Positions 1 to 30,797 of a stretch of 34,224 nt of DNA are shown piece after piece. Position 1 is the stretch's first letter; every line of letters starts with the position of its first letter. Under the pieces are notes generated by a model. That model was not told where the DNA came from. It was given only the letters and a program-made list of their open reading frames with translations, and searched no databases. A program made the translations under genes and the position numbers. This DNA comes from Acidobacteriota bacterium (lineage in GTDB: Bacteria; Acidobacteriota; Vicinamibacteria; Vicinamibacterales; UBA8438), in assembly GCA_021296515.1 (NCBI GenBank), contig JAGWAH010000008.1:7151-41374 (forward strand). Reading direction: 5' to 3'.

Positions 1-259
1 CTAGCCTCGCTAGTGCGGAGCACTCCTGGCTCGTCGGCGCGTTTCGCGACGCGACGCCAGCTCGCCATCCCGCCGAATGGGAAGGAAGCGGGACGGACGC
101 CGACCGGACGCAACCGGGTCCCGGCACCGACGAAACGGCCTGGCCGGCAAGGCGTTTTTCGTGGCGGCGCTGCTCCGGCCGGTGGTATCGTGAACCGCTG
201 GCGTCGGGCGATACCCGCGAGCGAAGCGCGCGCGAAGTCGATGTGAGGGGAGACCAGAG
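1..259. other. Non-coding stretch upstream of the FAD oxidoreductase
   Basis: I see no convincing gene here. Short open frames exist on both strands, but their translations are arginine- and proline-rich low-complexity sequence typical of spurious frames in GC-rich DNA. The last bases carry a purine-rich Shine-Dalgarno-like stretch (GAGGGGAGA, about 246-254) that serves the ATG at 260. No clear -35/-10 pair was recognised. Confidence 0.5.
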
Positions 260-2341
260 ATGGCGAAGAAGCGCATCAGCGACGGCGACGATCCACATCT
301 CGAGCACGAGAACGAGCAAGGTGTCAGCCGGCGGGACTTCGTCAGGACGGGAGCCGCGGCCGGGCTGGGCGCCGGCGCGCTGCTGACGCCGGGCCCGGCT
401 CAGGCGCAGGAATCGGCCTCGGGCGCCGAGGACGTGACCTGGGACTACGAGGTGGACGTGGTCATCGCGGGCGGCGGTTGCGCCGGCCTGACCGCGGCCA
501 TCCGCGCGCGGGATCTCGGCGCCAGCGTGCTGGTGGTGGATCAGAACTTCGACCTCGGCGGCCGGATGCTGCACAGCGGGGCCTTCGTCTCGCTCGGCGG
601 CGGCGACCCGGTCCAGCAGCGGGACATGAAGGGCGAGAAGGACAAGGAGGGATTGATCACGGTCGATCCCGCCGAGGAGCCGGAAGAGCTCGACGACAGC
701 GTCGACCTCCTGTTCACGGACATCACCGACTGGTCGGTGGTCGACCCCAAGGGCCAGAGCCCCTACCGCTACAACGAGCGGGAGCTCGCCCGCGCGTGGG
801 CGGAGAACTGCCCGGCCACGCGGCAGTTCATGATGGACAACTACGTCCGGTTCACGCGCGTCAGCGGCACGCACGGCGGCGGCGGCCTCTCGCGCGCGCG
901 GGGGGCGCGCTGCTTCCTGATGCTCGGCGACAAGACGGACATCAAGGCGGGCACGATCACGGCGGAGGATGCGGGCGTTGCCGATCCCGAGCGCACGAGC
1001 GCGTTCGCGCCGCAGCAGATGAACGACGCGCGCCGCCTGGTCGGGCCCAACGCGGTGAGCAACGGCGCGGCCCTCTCCCGTTGCCTGGAGTTCTCGGCGC
1101 GGGAGAAGGGCGTCGAGTTCATGCTGCACCGCCGGTTCACCGACCTCATCCGCGAGCAGCCGTTCGCGGGCCGGGTGGTAGGCATCCGGGCCCACTACTC
1201 GCCGCGGCACCACCCCGAGACCGGCGACCTGCTGCAGAGCTTCTGGCAGAACGGCAACGTCGACGAGCGGCGCGAGACTGTGACCATCCGTGCCCGCCGG
1301 GGCATCATCCTGGCCAGCGGCGGCCACGCCGGCAACCCGCAGGTCCGCAGCATGTTCTACCCCGCCATGCGGGAGCCCGCCTTCCCGACCAGCGGCGTCG
1401 CCCTGCAGGGCCCCCACGGCCAGGACGCCAGCGCGCTTGTCGCCGGCCTGCGGGTGGGCGCCAACCTGGCGGGGATGCACCAGAACCTGTCGTATCCCAC
1501 GACGTTCCACATCTCGAACGCCTATACGACCATGATGCCCGGGCACCCGACGTTCGGCTTCCGCCGCTCCGCGGGGGTCAACGTCGGCAGCGCCGGCTTC
1601 GAGGAGTTCATCGCAGTGAACCAGGTCGGCAAGCGCTTCTTCAACGAGGTCCGCCTGCCGGCCCGGCCGGGCGGCAGCCGCTACCCGGGCGACGGCGCCG
1701 CCCCCGGCCAGGGGCTGGAACACAAGCCGCTCGACTGGCGCAACTGCGAGAAGAAGTGGATCCGGGAGTCGTACGACTACGACCACGGCCTCGACGCGGC
1801 GCTGGCCATGAACGAGGGGTCGAAGGCGCCGGACTACTACTCGGGGCCGCTGTGGGCCGTCTTCGACCAGGAGGCGGTGGAGCGCACCGGATGGGAGCTC
1901 CGCTACCCGTACGTGGCCGACAACGGCTACTCCTTCCAGGCCGACACCATCGAGGAGCTGGCCGAGAAGATCGCGGCCGGCCACGAGTTCCAGCGGGTGC
2001 CGCTGCGCTACCTGGCCGAAACCGTGGCCAAGTGGAACGATTACGTGGACGCCGGCGCCGATCCCGAGTTCGAGCGCCACGCGGATGCCCCGATGTTCCG
2101 CATAGACCGGCCGCCGTTCCATGCGCTCTCGATCATGGTGATCTGGCACGACTCCTACGGCGGCCTGCGGGTCGACGGGCGCCAGCAGGTCGTGGACATG
2201 CAGGGAGAGGTCATTCCGGGCCTCTATGCCGGCGGCGAGGCGGTCGGCGGGTTCAACAAGCACGGCCTCGGCAAGGGCCACGTCCACGGCTACATCGCCG
2301 GCACGCATGCCGCGGACAAGCCCTCCGAGACAGAGGGATAG
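260..2341 (+). CDS. Tat-exported FAD-dependent oxidoreductase (fumarate reductase / 3-ketosteroid dehydrogenase-like flavoprotein)
   Basis: This 693-aa protein belongs to the FAD_binding_2 flavoprotein superfamily. The N-terminus has a twin-arginine motif (SRRDF, Arg24-Arg25) followed by an Ala/Gly-rich stretch ending near AQAQ (about 47-50), so export as a folded flavoprotein is expected. The dinucleotide-binding GGGCAG motif is at residues 71-76, just after the strand VVIAG. The C-terminal part has the family signatures HDSYGGLRVD and GLYAGGEAVGG, the latter contacting FAD. The start is ATG with GGGGAG upstream. It is followed after 13 bp by a small accessory gene and then by a diheme cytochrome c, so the electron acceptor is probably that cytochrome. 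The substrate cannot be read from sequence. Fumarate reductase, steroid dehydrogenase and other alkane or alcohol oxidising roles all remain possible. Confidence 0.88.
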   Translation: MAKKRISDGDDPHLEHENEQGVSRRDFVRTGAAAGLGAGALLTPGPAQAQESASGAEDVTWDYEVDVVIAGGGCAGLTAAIRARDLGASVLVVDQNFDLGGRMLHSGAFVSLGGGDPVQQRDMKGEKDKEGLITVDPAEEPEELDDSVDLLFTDITDWSVVDPKGQSPYRYNERELARAWAENCPATRQFMMDNYVRFTRVSGTHGGGGLSRARGARCFLMLGDKTDIKAGTITAEDAGVADPERTSAFAPQQMNDARRLVGPNAVSNGAALSRCLEFSAREKGVEFMLHRRFTDLIREQPFAGRVVGIRAHYSPRHHPETGDLLQSFWQNGNVDERRETVTIRARRGIILASGGHAGNPQVRSMFYPAMREPAFPTSGVALQGPHGQDASALVAGLRVGANLAGMHQNLSYPTTFHISNAYTTMMPGHPTFGFRRSAGVNVGSAGFEEFIAVNQVGKRFFNEVRLPARPGGSRYPGDGAAPGQGLEHKPLDWRNCEKKWIRESYDYDHGLDAALAMNEGSKAPDYYSGPLWAVFDQEAVERTGWELRYPYVADNGYSFQADTIEELAEKIAAGHEFQRVPLRYLAETVAKWNDYVDAGADPEFERHADAPMFRIDRPPFHALSIMVIWHDSYGGLRVDGRQQVVDMQGEVIPGLYAGGEAVGGFNKHGLGKGHVHGYIAGTHAADKPSETEG

Positions 2342-2354
2342 CCGCATCCCGACG

Positions 2355-3041
2355 ATGGCTCGGCAGGAGGACACGCAGGGCGCGCTCGACGTGAGCCGCG
2401 ACGCGGCGTCACCGGGCGAGGCCGAGGTTCGCAACGACGAGCCGCACGCCACGCGCGTAGTCGTCTGGGACACGCCGCCGGCCGTCGAACGCGGGACGCG
2501 CTTCGCCGTCAGGCTCGGGGTTTCGTGCTCCGCCAAGTGCAGGACGGCCGGCTGGACGGTGGAGGTGCACGACCACGACGGCTCGAAACGGGCGACGACC
2601 ACGCTCGGCGACGACCCGTGGCCCGGCACCGACGCGCTGTACCACGCCGAGGTCGCCCTGGTGGCTCCGGACACCGAAGGCCTGTACACGTGGCAGGCCG
2701 CAGCGCAGACAGGCGATACGGCTGTCGTCCACACCGACGGGAGCGCCTCGTTCCGCGTCCGTATCGTATCCGCCCCGGCCTGCCTCGTGACGGTTGTCGC
2801 CGCAGACGCGGAAAGCCGGGCCCCGGTGGAGGGCGCACGGGTGGTTGCGCACCCCTACCGGGCCGTCACCGACGAGCACGGCGTGGCGCAACTGCGGGTT
2901 CCGGCCGGCGAGTACCGCTTGTTCGTGTCGGGGCAGGGCTACGTTCCCTTCCGCTTCGACGGGGAAGTGAAGGCCGACACGACGATGCGCGCCGAGCTCG
3001 TGCAGGATGTGGAGCTCTCGGATGCCGATATCTGGTCCTGA
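2355..3041 (+). CDS. Accessory protein with C-terminal carboxypeptidase-regulatory-like (beta-sandwich) domain
   Basis: This 228-aa protein shows no signal peptide or membrane segment. The first 30 residues are charged and look disordered. Residues about 35-140 look like a beta-rich fold carrying two close cysteines (SCSAKC). Residues about 145-220 match the carboxypeptidase regulatory-like pattern: APVEGARVVAH, TDEHGVAQLRVPAGEYRLFVSGQGY. Start ATG 2355 was chosen because the open frame extends upstream only inside the flavoprotein gene. It lies between a Tat-exported flavoprotein and an exported cytochrome c. Lacking its own signal, it might ride out of the cell bound to the folded flavoprotein, as known for other Tat hitchhikers; this is inference. 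The function is unknown. Confidence 0.75.
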   Translation: MARQEDTQGALDVSRDAASPGEAEVRNDEPHATRVVVWDTPPAVERGTRFAVRLGVSCSAKCRTAGWTVEVHDHDGSKRATTTLGDDPWPGTDALYHAEVALVAPDTEGLYTWQAAAQTGDTAVVHTDGSASFRVRIVSAPACLVTVVAADAESRAPVEGARVVAHPYRAVTDEHGVAQLRVPAGEYRLFVSGQGYVPFRFDGEVKADTTMRAELVQDVELSDADIWS

Positions 3042-3075
3042 TCGCCGGCGCCGACAAGACGAGGGAGTCAGTCCG

Positions 3076-3837
3076 ATGCGGAACTTCGTGGTCGGTGGTC
3101 TGATACTCGGCTGTGTTCTCCTCGCGTGCGCCATGAACGCCGGCGCCGCGCAGGTCGACGACGCGGCGCGCTTCGAGCAGGGGGAACAGCTCTACGAGGC
3201 GCGCTGCGCGCGGTGCCACGGCGCTACCGGCGAAGGCAGCCCCCCGACGTTTCCGGCCCTGAGCGGCAACGACCGGCTCGCGGACGCCGCACGGATTGTC
3301 GGGATCCTGCGCGACGGCTCGGGAAACATGCCGCCGTTCCCCACCCTGACCGCGGCCGAGACCTCGTCGCTGGCGAGCTACGTCCGCAACGCCTGGACGA
3401 ACGACTTCGGAGGCGTCACGACCGGCGAGGTGGCCGCGCTGGCGGACGCGTCCGCGGACGCGGTGTCTACGGCGTCGGTGTGGGACGGCGTCTTCACCGC
3501 GGCGCAGGCGGCGCGGGGCCGGCTGGCGTACTCCGGGGGCTGCGGCTTCTGTCACGGCCGCCGCCTGAACGGCGCACCGGACGATCCCGACATGCGCTCC
3601 ACTCCCCCGCTGGCGCGGGCGAGATTCCTCCGCGAGTGGGACGGACGTTCGCTCGCCTCCCTCTACGAGTACACGCGGCTGACGATGCCCGAGGACAACC
3701 CGGCCTCCTTCACCGACGAGGAGTACGCCGACGTCATCGCCTACATGCTCTCCGTCAGTGGGATGCCGGCCGGCGACGAGGAGCTCCCGCCCGATTCGCA
3801 GACCCTCGCGCGCATCGTGATCCGGCCGCGCCAGTAG
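3076..3837 (+). CDS. Diheme c-type cytochrome, exported
   Basis: This 253-aa protein has two cytochrome c domains. An N-terminal hydrophobic signal (about 1-25) precedes either a lipobox-like LLAC at Cys18 or a Sec cleavage after NAGA; the sequence does not decide which. The first haem motif is CARCH (Cys44, Cys47, His48), with a likely axial Met85 in GNMPPFP. The second is CGFCH (Cys156, Cys159, His160), with a likely axial Met204 in LTMPED. Start ATG 3076 has GAGGGAG about 8 bases upstream. It sits 34 bp after the accessory gene and is the natural electron acceptor for the flavoprotein at 260. Together they look like a periplasmic dehydrogenase-cytochrome unit feeding the respiratory chain. 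Confidence 0.88.
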   Translation: MRNFVVGGLILGCVLLACAMNAGAAQVDDAARFEQGEQLYEARCARCHGATGEGSPPTFPALSGNDRLADAARIVGILRDGSGNMPPFPTLTAAETSSLASYVRNAWTNDFGGVTTGEVAALADASADAVSTASVWDGVFTAAQAARGRLAYSGGCGFCHGRRLNGAPDDPDMRSTPPLARARFLREWDGRSLASLYEYTRLTMPEDNPASFTDEEYADVIAYMLSVSGMPAGDEELPPDSQTLARIVIRPRQ

Positions 3838-11764: not shown

Positions 11765-12991
11765 TCATGCGATCGGGATCGTTCTCAGATGCGTGTCGAT
11801 GGCCCGGACCGCATCGGCGGGCAACGGAAGATGCGTCTTCTCGGCGCGCCAGTGCTGGTGAAACAGGGTGACGGTCTCGCGGGCCGTGTCGAGAACGAGC
11901 CGCTCCGGGAGCATGGCTTTGGCGGCGAGATGGGAGAGCTCGTCCTCTGAAAACTCGGAGAACAGCCTGGTCCGGCTGAACTTCAAAGCGGCGGTGCGGT
12001 CCGGGATATAGGCAATCGTCGCAACGAAGTCGTACGCCGGCGCCAGGGCCGCGTGTCGCCGGTCAGGATAGATCAGTGACCAGTTCTTCAGGTGCATGTC
12101 GGCATTGCCAATCAGCGTGTTGAAGGTCAGGCGACGGATGAACTCCGCCATGTCGATGTCCTGGCACTCCGCTCCAAGGACCCGGGCAATGCTGCGAGCG
12201 CTTGCGTTCTCGTACTTCTGCTCGGGATAGACGCCGAATACTTGCGCGAAGTCCTCCATGTGAACAGGGGCTCCGTCGGGAAGCCGGTCGAAGCGCTCAA
12301 CGGCGAGCGCTTCTCTTCCGAGGGCCCCGACACCTTCCGGCAGATTTCCGATCGTGTTGATGGCTATGAGTCGTGTCGCTGGCACGTCCATTCCAATCAG
12401 CCGGGCCAACGTCATCATCGAGAATTCGTTCTCCGGGAGCCCCTCGAACTCGCGCGACGGAAGCTTGACTATCCACGAACCACCGATGCCGCGGGCCGGA
12501 ATGGTCAGTCCTCCCCTCGGCTCGTTCAGCGCCGAGAACTTCAGTTGTACACCGGCCAGCGAGAAGCGCAGGGCATGTTGGCGGCGGTCGTTCCCGCTCT
12601 CGTCGACATCGGCGTGCATGTGAGACTGCGGAGGCCATGCGCCTCCATCGGTCGGTTGAATCGTGACGGCGCCAGGCAGATCCATCCCGAGCACCCAGAG
12701 CAGGAAGAACTCGCGTACGGGATCCACCCCCGCACGCTCCGCGAGATAGGCGCGCATGTGCCCTTCCGGGAGCAGATTCGAAAAGAACGGCAGCAGACGC
12801 GTCCGAGTCGGCCCGAATTCGGTGATCAATTCTCCGAATCGATCCTTGAAGCCGAGTCCAAGAGCAGCGCGGCTGTCGTTCGCAACGTAGGCATCTGCGA
12901 AGCCGAAGATCGTTCTATCGCCGTCGATATGGGTGAGCGTGCCGACAGGCTCACCGTGAAGCAAGACCTCGAGAACCCGGACATCAGCCAT
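11765..12991 (-). CDS. hipA: HipA-type serine/threonine kinase toxin
   Basis: This 408-aa kinase is the toxin of a type II toxin-antitoxin pair; the E. coli relative phosphorylates glutamyl-tRNA synthetase. The N-terminal subdomain 1 (about 1-110) includes FFSNLLPEG. Ser144 in FSLAGVQLK aligns with the autophosphorylated Ser150 of E. coli HipA. Lys176 in WIVKLPS is the ATP-binding lysine, NADMHLKN gives catalytic Asp298 and Asn303, and Asp321 in PAYDF is the metal ligand. All key residues are intact, so it is probably active. Start ATG 12991 overlaps the end of hipB by 8 bases; an upstream in-frame ATG would lie inside hipB. Local GC is lower (60% over 12361-12420) than in the chromosome around it. 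Confidence 0.9.
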   Translation of the reverse strand: MADVRVLEVLLHGEPVGTLTHIDGDRTIFGFADAYVANDSRAALGLGFKDRFGELITEFGPTRTRLLPFFSNLLPEGHMRAYLAERAGVDPVREFFLLWVLGMDLPGAVTIQPTDGGAWPPQSHMHADVDESGNDRRQHALRFSLAGVQLKFSALNEPRGGLTIPARGIGGSWIVKLPSREFEGLPENEFSMMTLARLIGMDVPATRLIAINTIGNLPEGVGALGREALAVERFDRLPDGAPVHMEDFAQVFGVYPEQKYENASARSIARVLGAECQDIDMAEFIRRLTFNTLIGNADMHLKNWSLIYPDRRHAALAPAYDFVATIAYIPDRTAALKFSRTRLFSEFSEDELSHLAAKAMLPERLVLDTARETVTLFHQHWRAEKTHLPLPADAVRAIDTHLRTIPIA

Positions 12992-13574
12992 CGTCGTCGT
13001 CGTCAAGCGTGTAGGCTGGGGGCGCGGACGAGGCGGTGTCACCCGCAGTTCGGCCATGCGCGAGTGCATCACGCAGTCTGCGAAGCTGCAGGGACGACCG
13101 ACGAACGGCGTCGCAAGAGCGCGGGTCGCGCATCAAGGCCTTGACCGCTTGCGTAGCTTGCCGAATGACCTGTTGATCGAGCAGCGAGGGCCGGAAGCGC
13201 TGCAGTGCACGTACCTGGTGCCGAAGCTCCGTCAACTCGGTCTCGGACGACAGCTCTTCCGACAGATCATCCATTGCGCGTTGAAGACGCGCAAACTCCC
13301 GCCGAACCTGCCGAGCAACCCTGCGATGTTCGGCCGAGAGCGCAGCGCTGCCGGCAATCGACCGAACCGCTGCAACGGATCTGCGAGGCACGAGCACCAA
13401 CTCCAGGTCGAGGGCACGGGCGAGTGCCACCAGACTCGACAGCCTGAGATCGACGGCCCCGCTCTCGATCCTGGAGATGTGACCTTGGGCTACCGCCGCG
13501 TCGGCGCTCAGCTCGCGCTGGCTGATGCCCTTGGCTTCACGGGCATTTCGCAGCGCATCGGCCAACTGACTCAC
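12984..13574 (-). CDS. hipB: HipB-like antitoxin with helix-turn-helix domain and long C-terminal extension
   Basis: This 196-aa protein has an N-terminal XRE/Cro helix-turn-helix (about residues 5-60; GISQRELSADAAVAQGHISR). It represses its own operon and neutralises HipA in known systems. E. coli HipB is only 88 aa. Here about 130 further residues form a basic, probably helical region (AEHRRVARQVRREFARLQ onward) and end in five aspartates and a glycine. The start is GTG 13574. The stop overlaps the hipA start, implying translational coupling. The upstream 60 bases are extremely AT-rich and hold short palindromes that could be operators. Confidence 0.82.
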   Translation of the reverse strand: MSQLADALRNAREAKGISQRELSADAAVAQGHISRIESGAVDLRLSSLVALARALDLELVLVPRRSVAAVRSIAGSAALSAEHRRVARQVRREFARLQRAMDDLSEELSSETELTELRHQVRALQRFRPSLLDQQVIRQATQAVKALMRDPRSCDAVRRSSLQLRRLRDALAHGRTAGDTASSAPPAYTLDDDDDG

Positions 13575-24855: not shown

Positions 24856-25440
24856 ATGACTCGAGGTCGCACGGCGCGACGGTGGATTCATGCGGCTCTG
24901 ACGCTGATGGGCGTCACCCTGGCGGTGGCGATGGCGGTGGTCTGGAACGGCGCCGCAGCCCAGGAGCAGGACGGCACACAGGAGCAGGACGGCACAGCGG
25001 CAGCCGGACCGCTCGACGCCGTGACGCCGGGAGAGCAACCGATCGCTTTCAGCCACGCCCGGCACGTCGAGCAGGCGGGCGTCGACTGCCAGTTCTGTCA
25101 TGCCTACGCGCGGCGCGGGCCGGTGGCCGGTATCCCGTCGGTCGAACGGTGCGTCGGCTGTCACCGCAGCATCCTGACCGAACGGCCGGAGATCGCGAAG
25201 GTGCTCGACTACTGGGAGCGGGAGACCCCCATCCCTTGGATCCGGATCCACAATCTGCCGGACTACGTTCGCTTCAGCCACAAGGCGCACGTCCGCACCG
25301 GCATCGACTGCGCCGAATGCCACGGCGACGTCGGGCGCATGGATATCGCCGCCCAGGTGGAATCGCTGTCGATGGGCTGGTGCGTCGACTGCCACACGGC
25401 GCGTGAGGCCTCCCGCGACTGCCTGGTGTGCCACTACTAG
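24856..25440 (+). CDS. actA: Alternative complex III pentaheme cytochrome c subunit ActA
   Basis: This 194-aa periplasmic subunit is anchored or exported by an N-terminal hydrophobic segment (about 12-35). Five CxxCH motifs are present: CQFCH (78-82), CVGCH (99-103), CAECH (152-156), CVDCH (176-180) and CLVCH (189-193). ActA carries electrons from the iron-sulfur clusters of ActB toward the ActE cytochrome or the acceptor. The order actA-B-C-D-E-F downstream confirms the assignment. A perfect 18-bp tandem duplication just after the signal doubles the hexapeptide QEQDGT. The gene lies 25 bp before actB and behind the predicted promoter at 24738. Confidence 0.93.
   Translation: MTRGRTARRWIHAALTLMGVTLAVAMAVVWNGAAAQEQDGTQEQDGTAAAGPLDAVTPGEQPIAFSHARHVEQAGVDCQFCHAYARRGPVAGIPSVERCVGCHRSILTERPEIAKVLDYWERETPIPWIRIHNLPDYVRFSHKAHVRTGIDCAECHGDVGRMDIAAQVESLSMGWCVDCHTAREASRDCLVCHY
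24961..24996 (+). repeat. Perfect 18-bp tandem duplication inside actA
   Basis: CAGGAGCAGGACGGCACA occurs twice head to tail (24961-24978 and 24979-24996). It is in frame and duplicates QEQDGT in the low-complexity segment between the signal and the first haem domain. Complete identity suggests a recent slippage event. Confidence 0.9.
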
Positions 25441-25465
25441 CGGTCAGACTCGCAGACTGGATCAC

Positions 25466-28400
25466 ATGGTGAGTGAGACGTCCCCGGACCCCAGCGCACT
25501 GACGGAGACCGTGGGCCGCCGCACCTTTCTCAAGGTGCTCGGCGGCGCGGGACCGGCTGCGGCGGTCGCCGCGTGCTCCCCGGTGCCGACCGAGACCATC
25601 ATTCCCTACGTCGTGCCGCCGGACGACGTCGTTCCGGGCGTGGCGACGTGGTACGCGAGCGTCTGCGGCGAGTGTCCGAACGGCTGCGGCACCCGGGTGC
25701 GCACGCGCGAGGGAAGGGCGGTCAAGATCGAGGGCAACCCGGCGCACCCGGGGAACCAGGGCGCCCTCTGCACGCGCGGGCAGGCGGCCCTGCAGGGGTT
25801 GTACAACCCGGACCGCTTCCGCGGCCCGCAGCGGCGGCGAACGACCAACGCCGCCGCCGGTCAGTCGGTCTTCGAGCCGTTGGGCTGGGAGGAAGCCGAA
25901 ACCGAGCTGGCCGAGCGCATCCGCGCCCTGGTCGAGGCGGGCAACGCGGATCGCATCGCGGTGGTCACGCCACTCCTGTCGGGGACCCTGGACGCCCTGG
26001 TCGACCGCTGGGCCGCAGCCGTCGGCGGAGCGCGCCGCCTGCGGTACGAAGCCTTCGCCTACGAGCCGCTGCGGGCCGCCAACCGCATCCTGTTCGATCG
26101 CCCCGCGGTGCCCTCTCACGACTTCGGCGGCGCGGATCTGATCGTCTCGTTCGGGGCGGATTTCCTGGAGACATGGCTGTCCACCGTGAGCCAATCCCGC
26201 GCGTTCGCCGACGCCCGGCGCCCGGAGAACGGGGGGACGGTGCGCGCCGTCCACTTCGAACCGCGGCTCTCGCTGACCGCGTCGAGCGCCGACGAGTGGA
26301 TCCGCATCGAGCCGGGCGCCGAAGGGGCCGTGGCCGCGGCGATGGTGCGGACCATCGTGGAAGAAGGCAGGGTGCAGGCGGCAGGCATCACCGGCAACGA
26401 CCTCGCCCGTATCCGCGCCCTGGTCGCCGACTCGACGCCGGAGGCGGCCGCCGCGCGCAGCGGGGTATCCGCGGGCCGCATCGTCCAGCTCGCACGGGCG
26501 TTCTCGGATCCGGGAGCGGGACCCGGCCGCACGCTGGCCGCGGGCGGCGGCGTCGCCGTCTCGGGCCCCGACGCCACCGCGACCCAGGTGGCCGTCGGCC
26601 TGCTCAACTACGTCGCGGGCAACATCGGCGAAACCGTACGGTTCGCGCAGGACGGCCTGTGGGACAACACCTCGACCTGCGCCGACCTGCTCGACCTGGC
26701 CGGCGCCATGCGCGACGGGTCGATCGAGGTGCTCGTTCTGCACCAGGTCAATCCCGTGCACACGCTGCCCGCCGCCGCCGACTTCGCCGGGGCGCTGGAC
26801 GCCGTGCCTTTCGTCGCCGCGACGTCGAGCTGGCCGGACGAGACGACGGCCCGCGCCGATCTCATCCTGCCGTCGCACACTCCGCTGGAGTCGTGGGGCG
26901 ACCACCGCCCGGCCGCGGGCCAGTACGGCCTGATGCAGCCGGCGATGCGGCCGGTGTACGACACGCGGCACCTGGGCGACATCCTGCTCGGGACCGGACG
27001 CGCGGCGCTCGCCGGCGCGGCGGAGGCAGGCGCCGGAACGCCGGACGGTGCACCGGCCCTCCCCGAGGGCGAGTTCTACGACGTGCTGCGGGACGAGTGG
27101 CGCGCCATCAAGGCCGCGCTGGACCCGCCGGAAGAGCCGGCGAACGACCCGGAGCCGGCGGACGAGACGCAGCCGCAGGATCCCGCTGCGGCCCGGCGCG
27201 CGGCGGCTGCGGCCCGGCGCGCGGCGGCTGCGGCCCGGCAGGCGGCCGAGGCCGAGTTCGAGGGATTCTGGGCGGACGTCGTGCGGCAGGGCGGACGGTG
27301 GTCTCCGGTCGAGCCCCAGCCGGTGGCGCTCGGCGCGGGACTCGGCGAGATGGACTTCGCGGGGCTCGGCGCCCCCGGTGACGAACGGCGCGCGCTGACG
27401 CTGGTCGCCTACCCGTCGCTGCACTTCCTCGACGGGCGGGGCGCCAACCGGCCGTGGCTGCAGGAGATCCCCGATCCGCTGCTGAAGACCGCGTGGGGCT
27501 GCGGGGCGGAGATGACGCCGGAGACCGCGGCCGCCGTCGGGGCGCAGGACGGGCAGCTCGTGACCCTGGAATCGGACCATGGCACGGTCGACGCGACGGT
27601 GGTCCTGAACCCGCACCTGCACCCGGGGATCGTGGCGATCCCGATCGGCCAGGGCCACAGCGACTTCGGCCGCTACGCCACCGGCCGCGGCGTCAACCCG
27701 GCGGTGCTGCTCGACCCGGCGCCGGAAGCGGCGTCCGGCGGACCGCGTTGGGCCGGCACGCGCGTCGACGCGACGCCACGCGAGCTGCATCGCCCCCTCG
27801 CGCGCCTGCAGCAGACGTTCGATCAGCAGGGACGCGGGATCGCCCAGGCAGTCTCGCGCGCGGCGCTCGAGGCCGGCGACGTGCACCCCGAAGAGGAACA
27901 TTTCAGCCTGTATCCCGAGCACGAGCATCCGACGCACCGCTGGGGCATGGCCATCGACCTGAACGCCTGCAACGGCTGCAACGCCTGCGTCGCCGCCTGC
28001 TACGCCGAGAACAACGTGCCGGTGCTGGGCGCGGATCGGATGGTGCGCGGCCGGACCATGTCGTGGCTGCGCATCGAGCGCTTCGTGGAGACGGAGCCCG
28101 CCCCGAACGGCGGCGCGCGCGTCGACTCGCGCTTCCTCCCGATGCTGTGCCAGCACTGCGACCACGCGCCGTGCGAGTCGGTGTGCCCGGTCTATGCGAC
28201 CTACCACAGCGAAGAGGGCCTGAACGCGCAGATCTACAACCGCTGCGTCGGCACCCGCTACTGCTCGAACAACTGCCCCTACAAGGTGCGGCTTCCCGGA
28301 GCCGCTGAACCTGCAGCTCAATCCCGACGTGACGGTCCGCAGCGCCGGCGTCATGGAGAAGTGCACCTTCTGCGTGCAGCGGATCCAGGACGGCAAGGAT

Positions 28401-28610
28401 CGCGCGCGCGACGAGGATCGCCCGGTGCGGGACGGGGACGTCACCCCGGCCTGCGCCCAGACGTGTCCGGCGCAGGCGATCGTCTTCGGAGACCTCAACG
28501 ATCCGCAGAGCCGCGTTTCGCAGCTCTCCGCCGCCGACCGCGGCTACCACGCGCTCGGCGTCCTCAACACGCGGCCCGCAGTGACCTACCTGAAGAAGGT
28601 GACTACGTGA
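25466..28610 (+). CDS. actB: Alternative complex III iron-sulfur subunit ActB, interrupted by a short out-of-frame deletion near 28292
   Basis: ActB is the large periplasmic Fe-S subunit of ACIII, related to molybdopterin oxidoreductases. The N-terminus has a Tat motif (GRRTFLK) and lipobox VAAC. The B1 domain carries CGECPNGCG with a later Cys, and VTPLLSG/HTPLESW-type family sequence. An acidic then Ala/Arg-rich linker (about 27130-27260) precedes the B2 ferredoxin domain: CNGCNACVAAC, CQHCDHAPCESVC, CVGTRYCSNNC. After CPYKVR (to 28291) the frame is lost. The proper continuation FPEPLNLQLNPDVTVR starts one base out, at 28293, and runs to the stop at 28610 through MEKCTFC and CAQTC. About 7-8 codons normally found between KVR and FPEP are missing. 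Start ATG 25466. The stop overlaps the actC GTG. Either assembly error or true inactivation. Confidence 0.88.
27185..27247 (+). repeat. 21-bp tandem repeat, three copies, in the actB linker
   Basis: The unit GCTGCGGCCCGGCGCGCGGCG is perfect at 27185-27205 and 27206-27226, with a diverged third copy at 27227-27247. It encodes an Ala/Arg-rich heptad-like stretch (AAARRAA repeated) between the molybdopterin-like and ferredoxin domains of ActB. The copy number probably varies between strains. Confidence 0.85.
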
Positions 28611-30284
28611 GCGTGGCGGACCACGCGATCAACTACGGGCGGATCGACACCGACATCCTGCGGACGATGCAGCCGCCGGGGCGGGCGTACTTCGCCTCGC
28701 TGGCCCTGATCCTCGGCGGGCTCGCCCTGGGCGCCTACGCGTTCTCGGTGCAGTGGCGGCTCGGCCTCGGCGTGGCGGGCTACGAGCACCCGATGCTCTG
28801 GGGCATCTACATCACCAACTTCGTCTTCTGGGTCGGCATCGCCCATTCCGGCACCCTCATCTCGGCGGTCCTGTTCCTGTTCCGGGCCAAGTGGCGCACC
28901 TCCGTGGCGCGGGCGTCGGAGGCGATGACGGTCTTCGCGGTCATGACCGCGGGGCTCTTCCCGATCATCCACATCGGGCGGCCGTGGTTCTTCTACTGGC
29001 TCATCCCCTATCCGAACGAGCGCCAGCTCTGGGTGAACTTCCAGTCGCCGCTGGTCTGGGACGTCTTCGCCATCACCACCTACCTCACGGTGAGCGCGAT
29101 GTTCCTGTTCCTGGGACTGATCCCGGACGTCGCCGCCGCCCGCGACCGCTGCACCGACTGGCGCAAGCCGATCTACCGCGCCCTCGCCCTCGGCTGGCGC
29201 GGCTCGACCCGGCAGTGGATCCACTACGGCGCGCTGTACGGCTTCTTCGCGGCCCTGGCCACGCCGCTCGTCGTCTCGGTCCACAGCGTCGTCTCGTGGG
29301 ACTTCGCCATGTCCATCCTGCCGGGGTGGCACAGCACGATCTTCGCCCCCTACTTCGTCGCCGGCGCCATCTTCTCGGGCCTGGCGATGGTGATCACGCT
29401 GCTCATCCCGCTGCGCAAGCTGCTGGGGATCGAGGAGTACATCACCATCCGGCACTTCGAGAACCTGGCCAAGCTGATCATCGTCACGTCGCTCATCGTC
29501 GGCTACGCCTACCTGACCGAGTTCTTCGTCGCCTGGTACAGCGGCAACCCGTTCGAGCAGGGGACGTTCTACAACCGCATGTTCGGCGAGTACCGCCTTT
29601 TCTCCTGGGGCATGCTCACGTGCAACGTCGTCATTCCGCTGCTGCTCTTCTTCAAGCGCGTGCGGACGAACCTGGCCGCTCGGGATGTGGCTCGAGCGCT
29701 TCGTCATCATCGTCACGTCGTTGTCGCACGACTTCGATCCGGCCAACTGGACCGGCCTCTACGAACCGACCTGGGTGGAGGGAGCCATCACCGTCGGCAG
29801 CTTCTCGCTGTTCTTCCTGCTGTTCCTGCTGTTCATCAAGAACTTCCCGGCGGTGTCGATCACGGAGATGAAGGAGGGCTCGGCGCACGCCGAGGTCTTC
29901 GACGACAGCCTGGCCCGGTGCCTTTCGAGGCACGGGTTCCTGGACCGCTTCTACGAGCTGTTCCTGGCCTCGAGCCCGCGGGTCCGGGAGGCGTTCCGGC
30001 ACACCGACTTCGCCCACCAGAAGAAGATGCTGGCCGACTCGCTGTCGCTGATGACCGCCATGTCCGGCGCGCCGGCTGACGAGCTCGAGGAGCTGGACCG
30101 GGTCGCGCGCCGGCACGGCAAGCACGATCTCGACATCGGACTCGACCTGTACGACCTGTGGCTGGAGTCGCTGATGCAGACCGTCCGCGAGTTCGACGGG
30201 CACTTCGACCGCGACGTCGACCGCGCCTGGCGCAACGTGCTGGCCGAGGGCATCGAGTTCATGGAGTCGCGGCACGAGCGTTGA
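28607..30284 (+). CDS. actC: Alternative complex III membrane subunit ActC (NrfD-like), with a short out-of-frame deletion near 29678 and a C-terminal globin domain
   Basis: ActC is the NrfD/PsrC-like quinol-binding integral membrane subunit. GTG 28607 overlaps the actB stop (GTGA). Hydrophobic helices run from FASLALILGGLALGAYAF through MLWGIYITNFVFWVGIAHSG, FPIIHIGRPWFFYWLIPYP and LFSWGMLTCNVVIPLLLFF. After RVRTNLA (to 29677) the frame shifts. The true continuation LGMWLERFVIIVTSLSHDF starts at 29679, with about 10 codons of a conserved helix missing. The last helix (FSLFFLLFLLFIKNFP) and SITEMKE normally end ActC. Here the frame continues with no stop into a globin domain (29877-30284). 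Both the lesion and the fusion need confirmation on raw reads. Confidence 0.85.
29877..30284 (+). other. Globin domain fused in frame to the end of ActC
   Basis: This 135-residue segment looks like a complete single-domain bacterial globin. Counting from Gly1 at 29877, FYELFLASSPRVREAF (25-40) is the B/C region, with the C2 proline (Pro34) and CD1 phenylalanine (Phe40) spaced as in myoglobin's LF..P.....F. TDFAHQKKML follows, with a likely distal Gln48. The proximal F8 histidine is His80 (ARRHGKHDLDIG, codon 30114-30116). Then come YDLWLESLMQTVREFD and AWRNVLAEGIEFM, typical G and H helices. No ATG, GTG or TTG lies between the AAGGAGGG at 29871-29878 and the domain, so as written it can be translated only as part of ActC. 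Expected function: haem binding with O2, NO or redox sensing (inference). Confidence 0.75.
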
Positions 30285-30299
30285 GGAGGCGAGAGCACG

Positions 30300-30797
30300 A
30301 TGCGGATCCTGGGGGTGTACGACGAGCCGGCGAAGGCCTCGGTGGCGGTGGCGACGGCGCAGGACGCCGGGCTGGCCCGGGTCGACGCCTTCTCGCCGGC
30401 CCCGGACCATACCCTGGAGCAGCTCATGGGGGCGCGCGTGAGCCCGGTGCGTCTGTTCACGCTGGTCGGCGCGCTGCTCGGCTGCACCGCCGGGTTCTCG
30501 CTGCCGATCTATACGGTCTCGGCCTGGCCGCTCATCACCGGGGGCAAGCCGCTGTTCTCGATTCCGGCGTTCGTGGTGATCGCGTTCGAGCTGACGATCC
30601 TGTTCGGCGCCATCTTCGGCATGCTCGGCTTTCTTCTGCTGGCCGGGCTGCCGCGGCTCAGGCGCAGACACCTCGGCGACCCGCGGTTCAGCAACAACTG
30701 CTTCGGCGTGGAGATCACCTGTGACGAGGAACAGGCGGCGGCGGCGCGTTCGCTGCTCGCGGACGCCGGCGCGATCGAGGTGCGAACCGATGATTGA
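30300..30797 (+). CDS. actD: Alternative complex III subunit ActD (DUF3341)
   Basis: This 165-aa protein has a soluble N-terminal ferredoxin-like part (ILGVYDEPAKASVAVATAQDAGLARVD), then two transmembrane helices (about 52-75, LFTLVGALLGCTAGFSLP; and about 92-118, FVVIAFELTILFGAIFGML), then a C-terminal segment with the family motif DPRFSNNCFGVEI. It is a structural membrane subunit that packs against ActC. Start ATG 30300 has GAGGAGGCGAG upstream. It lies 15 bp after the ActC-globin stop and overlaps actE by 8 bases. Confidence 0.92.
   Translation: MRILGVYDEPAKASVAVATAQDAGLARVDAFSPAPDHTLEQLMGARVSPVRLFTLVGALLGCTAGFSLPIYTVSAWPLITGGKPLFSIPAFVVIAFELTILFGAIFGMLGFLLLAGLPRLRRRHLGDPRFSNNCFGVEITCDEEQAAAARSLLADAGAIEVRTDD

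Follow-up and report, generated by a model that had tools for sequence, protein, structure and literature searches.

Do three closely spaced genes near the start of a 34,224-nucleotide stretch of Acidobacteriota DNA (the window; GenBank assembly GCA_021296515.1, contig JAGWAH010000008.1, positions 7,151 to 41,374 of the forward strand) encode an exported respiratory enzyme, and if so which way do electrons pass through it? The first gene, F, encodes a flavoprotein with a twin-arginine translocation (Tat) motif, the second, A, a small accessory protein and the third, C, a diheme class I-like cytochrome c. With a probability of about 0.6, F, A and C make up a periplasmic flavin dehydrogenase linked to cytochrome c, and its use is probably catabolic. 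This reading is supported by the conserved F-A-C order, a cytochrome gene adjoining F in one branch of its family, correlated distances among the three proteins, the Tat and Sec signals, the class I character of C, pseudoazurin and LysR genes beside related loci, the COX1 gene of the window's genome and the ActD gene of the window.

All three genes lie on the + strand, F at 260..2341 (693 amino acids, aa), A at 2355..3041 (228 aa) and C at 3076..3837 (253 aa), and are separated by gaps of 13 and 34 bases. The tightly spaced three-gene module proposed in an initial annotation of the sequence is therefore present. The program-listed open reading frames (ORFs) begin earlier, from 2226 for A and from 3007 for C. 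The start of A was placed at ATG 2355 because close homologues begin there too, and that of C at ATG 3076 because it probably has a ribosome-binding site, GAGGGAG at 3061..3067, and opens a hydrophobic signal peptide. A putative ribosome-binding site of F, GAGGGGAG at 245..252, ends 7 bases 5' of its ATG. A scan for promoters and terminators found none.

The annotation had staked its case on conservation of the trio in relatives. An F-alignment scan of named genomes gave 378 relatives, of which the best 80 were kept. With loci from the window's order added, and F places of <400 bits or <480 matched residues dropped beforehand, 128 places were reduced to 105 distinct F by removing duplicates over the last 300 residues, and 14 of these with <2.2 kb downstream were left out. 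The remaining 91 checkable places comprise 47 F-A-C, 26 F-A, 6 F-C and 12 with F alone, but are not independent, as 80 loci are the best scan hits and the rest come from one order, some having been fetched for their matching A. The trio is thus conserved and the feared lack of conservation did not occur. In these counts L091 is F-A-C by reading (script call F-A), L117 counts as F alone despite an A ~3 kb further downstream, and L090 is F-A with its A split over contigs; homologue start codons were picked by script and may be off. The loci of the window's order hold 48 A genes that reach 100 bits. For 43 of them a same-strand F lies upstream within 3.6 kb, and the five others are at contig ends. 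The distance to F is within 230 bases in 39 of the 43 and >1.2 kb in four. No F-A fusions were noticed among the ORFs of the F homologue loci.

The tree of F contains two branches, F1 (79 rows, including the window) and F2 (26 rows), and A accompanies both. A cytochrome c gene, recognised by CxxCH and a hydrophobic N-terminus, adjoins F in 60 of the 79 F1 places compared with 10 of 299 background genes. Distances between the proteins are correlated, with Pearson coefficients of 0.63 (F1-A), 0.75 (F1-C) and 0.76 (A-C), against maxima of 0.28, 0.35 and 0.31 in 1000 permutations that leave shared ancestry in.

Several observations weigh against the proposed reading. Besides the shared ancestry retained in the permutation control, the rank correlation for F1-A is only 0.46. 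Six of the 91 places have F and C with no A between them, among them a locus of the window's own genus (L088, genome G153) where F is 94% identical to that of the window and C follows ~160 bases after it, and F has neither partner in 12 of the 91. In the F2 branch an adjacent cytochrome was found in 2 of 26 places and was lacking in 24, and therefore A cannot be specific to cytochrome coupling. The 130 flanking genes of F-A-C loci among L125-L204, taken with a simple GC-frame ORF caller and with long ORFs cut to their first 500 aa, have no shared pathway. Lastly, the predicted model of F is mediocre, with a predicted local distance difference test (pLDDT) score of 70. The single three-part enzyme complex of the annotation thus holds as a conserved unit but not as an obligatory one.

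F occurs in 29 of 162 genomes of the window's order at E 1e-60 and in 22 of 28 listed genomes of its family. A was found in 44 of the 162 at 1e-5, the weakest of these being large frames that match in their CarboxypepD_reg part alone, and in 6 of 396 genomes across Acidobacteriota, all from the window's order (Vicinamibacterales) and one a partial match. The best 80 of the 378 relatives come from Acidobacteriota, Gemmatimonadota and alpha-, beta- and gammaproteobacteria, with single Deinococcota, Myxococcota and Armatimonadota bins, and include the isolates Roseicyclus mahoneyensis, Roseibacterium, Roseobacter, Devosia nitrariae, Nitratireductor aestuarii and Histidinibacterium aquaticum. The trio itself is carried by isolates of Rhodobacterales, Devosia and Nitratireductor, many other carriers being metagenome bins, and is present in many Pseudomonadota and in three of five Gemmatimonadota rows. 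A restriction to Acidobacteriota was rejected on this ground, and the trio is not a trait of that phylum. In the F1 tree the Pseudomonadota and Gemmatimonadota rows stand among the Acidobacteriota rows, the closest having 71-83% identity to the window, a pattern that in a quick tree with metagenome bins suggests transfer between phyla. A search of plasmid records gave one weak hit, Salipiger, at 28.8% identity. Records L177, L178, L180 and L199, titled Bordetella parapertussis, are metagenome bins that sit in the tree with other betaproteobacterial bins, and their titles look mislabelled. The window's genome holds one F1 copy and one F2 copy, the latter on another contig (G000:C111). This second flavoprotein-accessory pair (L067, 9035-11464) has a flavoprotein that reads in two frames, as would a pseudogene or an assembly error.

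What kind of flavoprotein is F? It belongs to the FAD_binding_2 family (PF00890, E 8.8e-31, 107.9 bits against a curated cut-off of 20.4). Its scores are far under the cut-offs of all NCBIfam models among the best 25 of 97 matches (E<=1). For flavocytochrome c (TIGR01813) it reaches 131.7 against 285.45 bits, and for the 3-ketosteroid dehydrogenase (KSTD) models NF009478 and NF005882 it reaches 116.9 against 789 and 96 against 788 bits. No model among those 25 claims F, so that its identity with a known enzyme was rejected for these matches. Both Amino_oxidase (PF01593, the NicA2 family) and the GMC oxidoreductase family are absent from the 14 Pfam matches of F (to E 1); a GMC oxidoreductase domain is the mark of the flavoprotein in three-subunit dehydrogenases such as those of gluconate and fructose. 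The solved folds nearest to the model are KSTDs, urocanate reductase, flavocytochrome c3 and cyclohexanone dehydrogenase (CDH) with Z-scores of 32-35, while complex II flavoproteins rank lower at 20-26. Most of these alignments have a root-mean-square deviation (rmsd) of 12-16 over 380-430 residues, an exception being urocanate reductase 6t85 (Z 33.9, rmsd 3.3 over 301 residues).

Residues of F were matched to those of FccA by sequence alignment rather than by superposition of side chains. FccA H365 aligns with H429 (1544..1546), in the F1 branch only, where it is at least 97% conserved, and FccA H504 aligns with H630 of the H630-D631 pair (2147..2152), which is His in 77 of 79 F1 and 25 of 26 F2. 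FccA R402 and R544, the catalytic and carboxylate-binding arginines, are not conserved as arginines. The first aligns with P467 (P in 54 of 79 F1) and the second about with K667 (K 51, Q 24, M 4 of 79 F1), the first residue of the KHGLGK stretch (residues 667-672, 2258..2275). A nearby arginine, R465, present in 51 of 79 F1, could stand in for a missing one. Y422 is conserved (77 of 79 F1, 26 of 26 F2), and H630-D631 and H668-G669 are near-invariant, the latter in all letters read (79 F1, 24 F2). Given that the histidine pair is matched, the arginines are not and these two pairs are near-invariant, F has an active-site signature of its own.

C is assigned to class I by its score against PF00034 (66.1 bits, cut-off 21.3) together with its two CxxCH motifs, and PF13442 matches it in two stretches (E 2.6e-25, 89 bits, cut-off 27). 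The first heme site, CARCH (residues 44-48), lies at 3205..3219 and the second, CGFCH (residues 156-160), at 3541..3555. Each heme domain has one conserved methionine, M85, a possible sixth ligand, in the first and M204 in the second. In all 21 listed places where C has a single heme the match begins at profile position 98 or later of 250, therefore it is the second heme domain alone that remains. Since it is the only domain left there, the second heme domain is the likely partner of F. Further cytochrome genes surround the trio in the alphaproteobacterial loci L189-L191. Read by eye, ORFs combining a CarboxypepD_reg-like stretch with one CxxCH lie beside F in L078 (6832-8517) and L111 (8391-10364) and upstream of F in L081 and L097, the ORF of L111 having propeller-like repeats after its CxxCH part. 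These ORFs are possible alternative electron acceptors.

The signals for export differ among the three proteins. F carries the twin-arginine motif SRRDFV (residues 23-28, 326..343), and its export by Tat is predicted on this basis; RRx[FL] is present in 101 of the 105 distinct F homologues, the other four being cut at a contig start or frame-broken. C has a Sec-type signal peptide, and 52 of 57 C homologues have a hydrophobic, Sec-like N-terminus. For A of the window no signal peptide can be seen, and by eye the in-frame DNA upstream of A encodes no hydrophobic stretch. Among its homologues 2 of 80 exceed the hydropathy cut, both with stretches that by eye resemble strands of the folded domain. 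The periplasmic location that the annotation gave to A is accordingly not evident from its sequence. As no signal is visible, A either leaves with F via Tat or stays inside. Since both of its domains find their fold matches mostly among secreted or surface proteins, co-export with F through Tat is the likeliest route. The annotation had also held that this flavoprotein family is usually cytosolic or membrane-linked, which is inexact, as the alignment of F with CDH, a fold relative, runs through an SRRxF leader. The same holds for NicA2, a member of the amine oxidase family.

The predicted model of A is good (pLDDT 89) and bears out the label of beta-sandwich given to it in the annotation. Domain 1 (residues 31-139, 2445..2771) is an Ig/macroglobulin-like beta-sandwich with fold matches of Z 10-12, such as a chain of complement C3 (Z 11.8, rmsd 2.5 over 94 residues) and a CARDB domain (Z 10.9, rmsd 3.5 over 106 residues). 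Domain 2 (residues 142-218, 2778..3008) is transthyretin-like. It resembles carboxypeptidase D domain II (Z 13.4, rmsd 1.3 over 76 residues), and residues 151-212 match CarboxypepD_reg PF13620 (E 1e-8, 35.8 bits, cut-off 32.3). For the two-domain arrangement there was no good match among those listed, and rows spanning both domains had rmsd 12-16. Secreted or surface proteins make up most of the listed matches of both domains (complement, pilins, adhesins, carboxypeptidase D), and a few of those to domain 1 are intracellular (Nir2, protein 4.2). C58 in domain 1 is invariant across 39 aligned rows, most of which also have a tryptophan close to the C-terminus, where A of the window ends in the tail SDADIWS (3018..3038). 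Some homologues have an extra N-terminal stretch, perhaps a further sandwich. Searched against solved structures, a profile of A finds mainly domain 2, and a TonB-linked receptor ranks first (E 3.7e-6). It also matches kustc1130 (6HIF chain Y), an assembly factor of hydrazine dehydrogenase, though weakly (E 0.018), which hints that domains like the second of A can serve redox complexes. A PHROGs search with A gave none.

The surroundings of related loci were examined for signs of use. The commonest families among the 130 flanking genes were TctC receptors (7), LysR (6) and PF00144 (3), counted over the first 25 of 118 families. By eye, the six LysR genes each stand first upstream, in divergent orientation, in six alphaproteobacterial loci, which suggests induced catabolic use. 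Two Pfam Copper-bind genes were found among the 130 and are read as pseudoazurins immediately downstream of C in the Devosia loci L198 and L200. The window's genome has a COX1 gene, and the window itself holds at 24856-30797 an alternative complex III cluster comprising a five-CxxCH cytochrome, a 1558-aa ORF with molybdopterin, 4Fe-4S and NrfD domains, and ActD. Its ActB-like and ActC-like parts share one open frame.

How might the parts work together? The trio displays its gene order and the conservation of that order, a Tat motif, the signal peptide of C, its families and folds, and it lies in a genome with COX1; the direction of electron flow, the co-export of A, the contact of F with C and the chemistry we infer. 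F would fold in the cytoplasm, bind flavin adenine dinucleotide (FAD) and exit by the Tat system. A would bind F and most likely be carried out with it. C would be exported by Sec and receive its hemes in the periplasm. There F would oxidise a small organic substrate, the most likely chemistry being that, next to a carbonyl or carboxyl group, one carbon loses a hydride and its neighbour a proton, as in the structural relatives of F. FADH2 would then hand single electrons to C via the conserved second heme domain, and C would forward them to the aerobic chain.

A could instead be a cytoplasmic chaperone for assembly or proofreading that helps F to take up FAD or to pass through Tat, in the way that SdhE or TorD-like proteins serve other enzymes, in which case only F and C would work in the periplasm. 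A protein that shows no signal peptide, lies behind F in all 43 readable loci of the window's order, occurs in branches with and without C, weakly matches an assembly factor and has some intracellular fold matches in its first domain would suit such a role. However, the predominance of secreted and surface proteins among the matches of both domains argues for an exported A, and as some F-C loci lack A it is not a universal maturation factor. We regard the chaperone as somewhat unlikely, though it is the strongest of the competing explanations.

Less probable again is that electrons run the other way, F taking them from C to reduce a periplasmic compound that is unsaturated or oxidised, as urocanate reductase and flavocytochrome c fumarate reductase do. 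These reductases are the best profile matches of F in solved structures, they tie in fold with the KSTDs (Z 33-34 and 34-35), and F1 keeps both FccA histidine positions, with Lys or Gln about at the place of R544. The two FccA arginines are nevertheless not conserved. Fumarate and urocanate reductases use low-potential multihemes, whereas a class I cytochrome with a methionine ligand, as C seems to be in each of its domains, usually means high potential. The pseudoazurin-like and LysR neighbours and the COX1 gene also fit oxidation better. There is finally the notion that F works as an oxidase that depends on oxygen, with C sharing its regulon as a bystander. Flavoproteins are able to react with O2, and F stands without C in 38 of the 91 checkable places (26 F-A and 12 F alone), but the frequency of F1-adjacent cytochromes far over background, the correlated distances of F1 and C, and the retention of C in the six places lacking A make this very improbable. 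The periplasmic dehydrogenase coupled to cytochrome c is thus preferred. The module and likely role given in the annotation, an exported FAD enzyme feeding a diheme cytochrome, are retained, whereas its statements on the place of A, the firmness of a three-part complex and the unusualness of export hold less well.

An extension of the dehydrogenase reading can be offered tentatively, with odds somewhat short of even. F and A might represent a class of flavin dehydrogenase, exported by Tat and not described before, whose signal-less A rides out with F and docks interchangeable c-type acceptors (diheme C, single-heme C and possibly others), F1 having spread between phyla as an oxidation cassette for a widely available substrate. 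Genes near F in some loci are possible hints to substrates. By eye, from N-termini, cyclase-family-like and alpha/beta hydrolase-like genes are present in L147 and L150, and a cytochrome P450-like gene in L073 and L151. The immediate neighbours of the trio on its contig, a Ysc84-domain gene upstream and an S9 peptidase gene downstream, give no functional hint. Elsewhere in the window, at 11765-13574 on the minus strand, a HipA-like kinase (HipA_C E 9.1e-47) forms a HipBA-like pair with the small helix-turn-helix-like ORF ahead of it, and a similar-looking pair lies near the trio in L164.

If the dehydrogenase reading is correct, the trio would be a widespread and seemingly unnamed route, found in several phyla, by which an organic compound is oxidised outside the cytoplasm and its electrons pass straight to cytochrome c. 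The trio is carried by isolates (Rhodobacterales, Devosia, Nitratireductor), and therefore the question of its substrate is accessible to experiment. The signal-less A would be a clear test case for Tat co-export. Literature searches, with subscription literature mostly outside their scope, found no description of the F-A-C trio.

How, then, does the trio compare with known systems? The KSTDs (4AT0, 4C3X) stand at the top of the fold list, level with the reductases, yet F falls far below their NCBIfam cut-off, and we know of no A or C partners for them. Flavocytochrome c3 fumarate and urocanate reductases are exported to the periplasm and have a c-type electron partner, with fused or multiheme hemes. 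F shares their fold and, in F1, the register of their two active-site histidines, but lies under the TIGR01813 cut-off and does not conserve R402 and R544. The assembly factor kustc1130 resembles A in being small, in accompanying a redox enzyme and in its weak match to domain 2. It has no significant homology to A, which has a second sandwich domain and a flavoprotein partner. CDH of Alicycliphilus denitrificans K601 (8AM3) has an FAD_binding_2-like fold like that of F (Z 31.8, rmsd 12.9, ~22% identity over 419 aligned residues). According to the accessible part of its description, CDH desaturates ketones with the catalytic residues Tyr195, Tyr376, Tyr570 and Gly574 (PMC10966990). A close parallel in organisation may be drawn with Pseudomonas putida S16, where NicA2 and Pnao use the cytochrome CycN as electron acceptor, Pnao being oxidised fast by CycN and slowly by O2, as far as the accessible text reports (PMC9396064). 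Like the trio, these are exported flavoproteins with a cytochrome c in one operon; unlike F they belong to the amine oxidase family. The same portion of that text mentions no counterpart of A and likens the fold of CycN to bovine cytochrome c, whereas C has two heme domains (PMC9396064). Set beside NicA2 and CycN, the F-A-C trio is a real conserved cassette of a known general kind.

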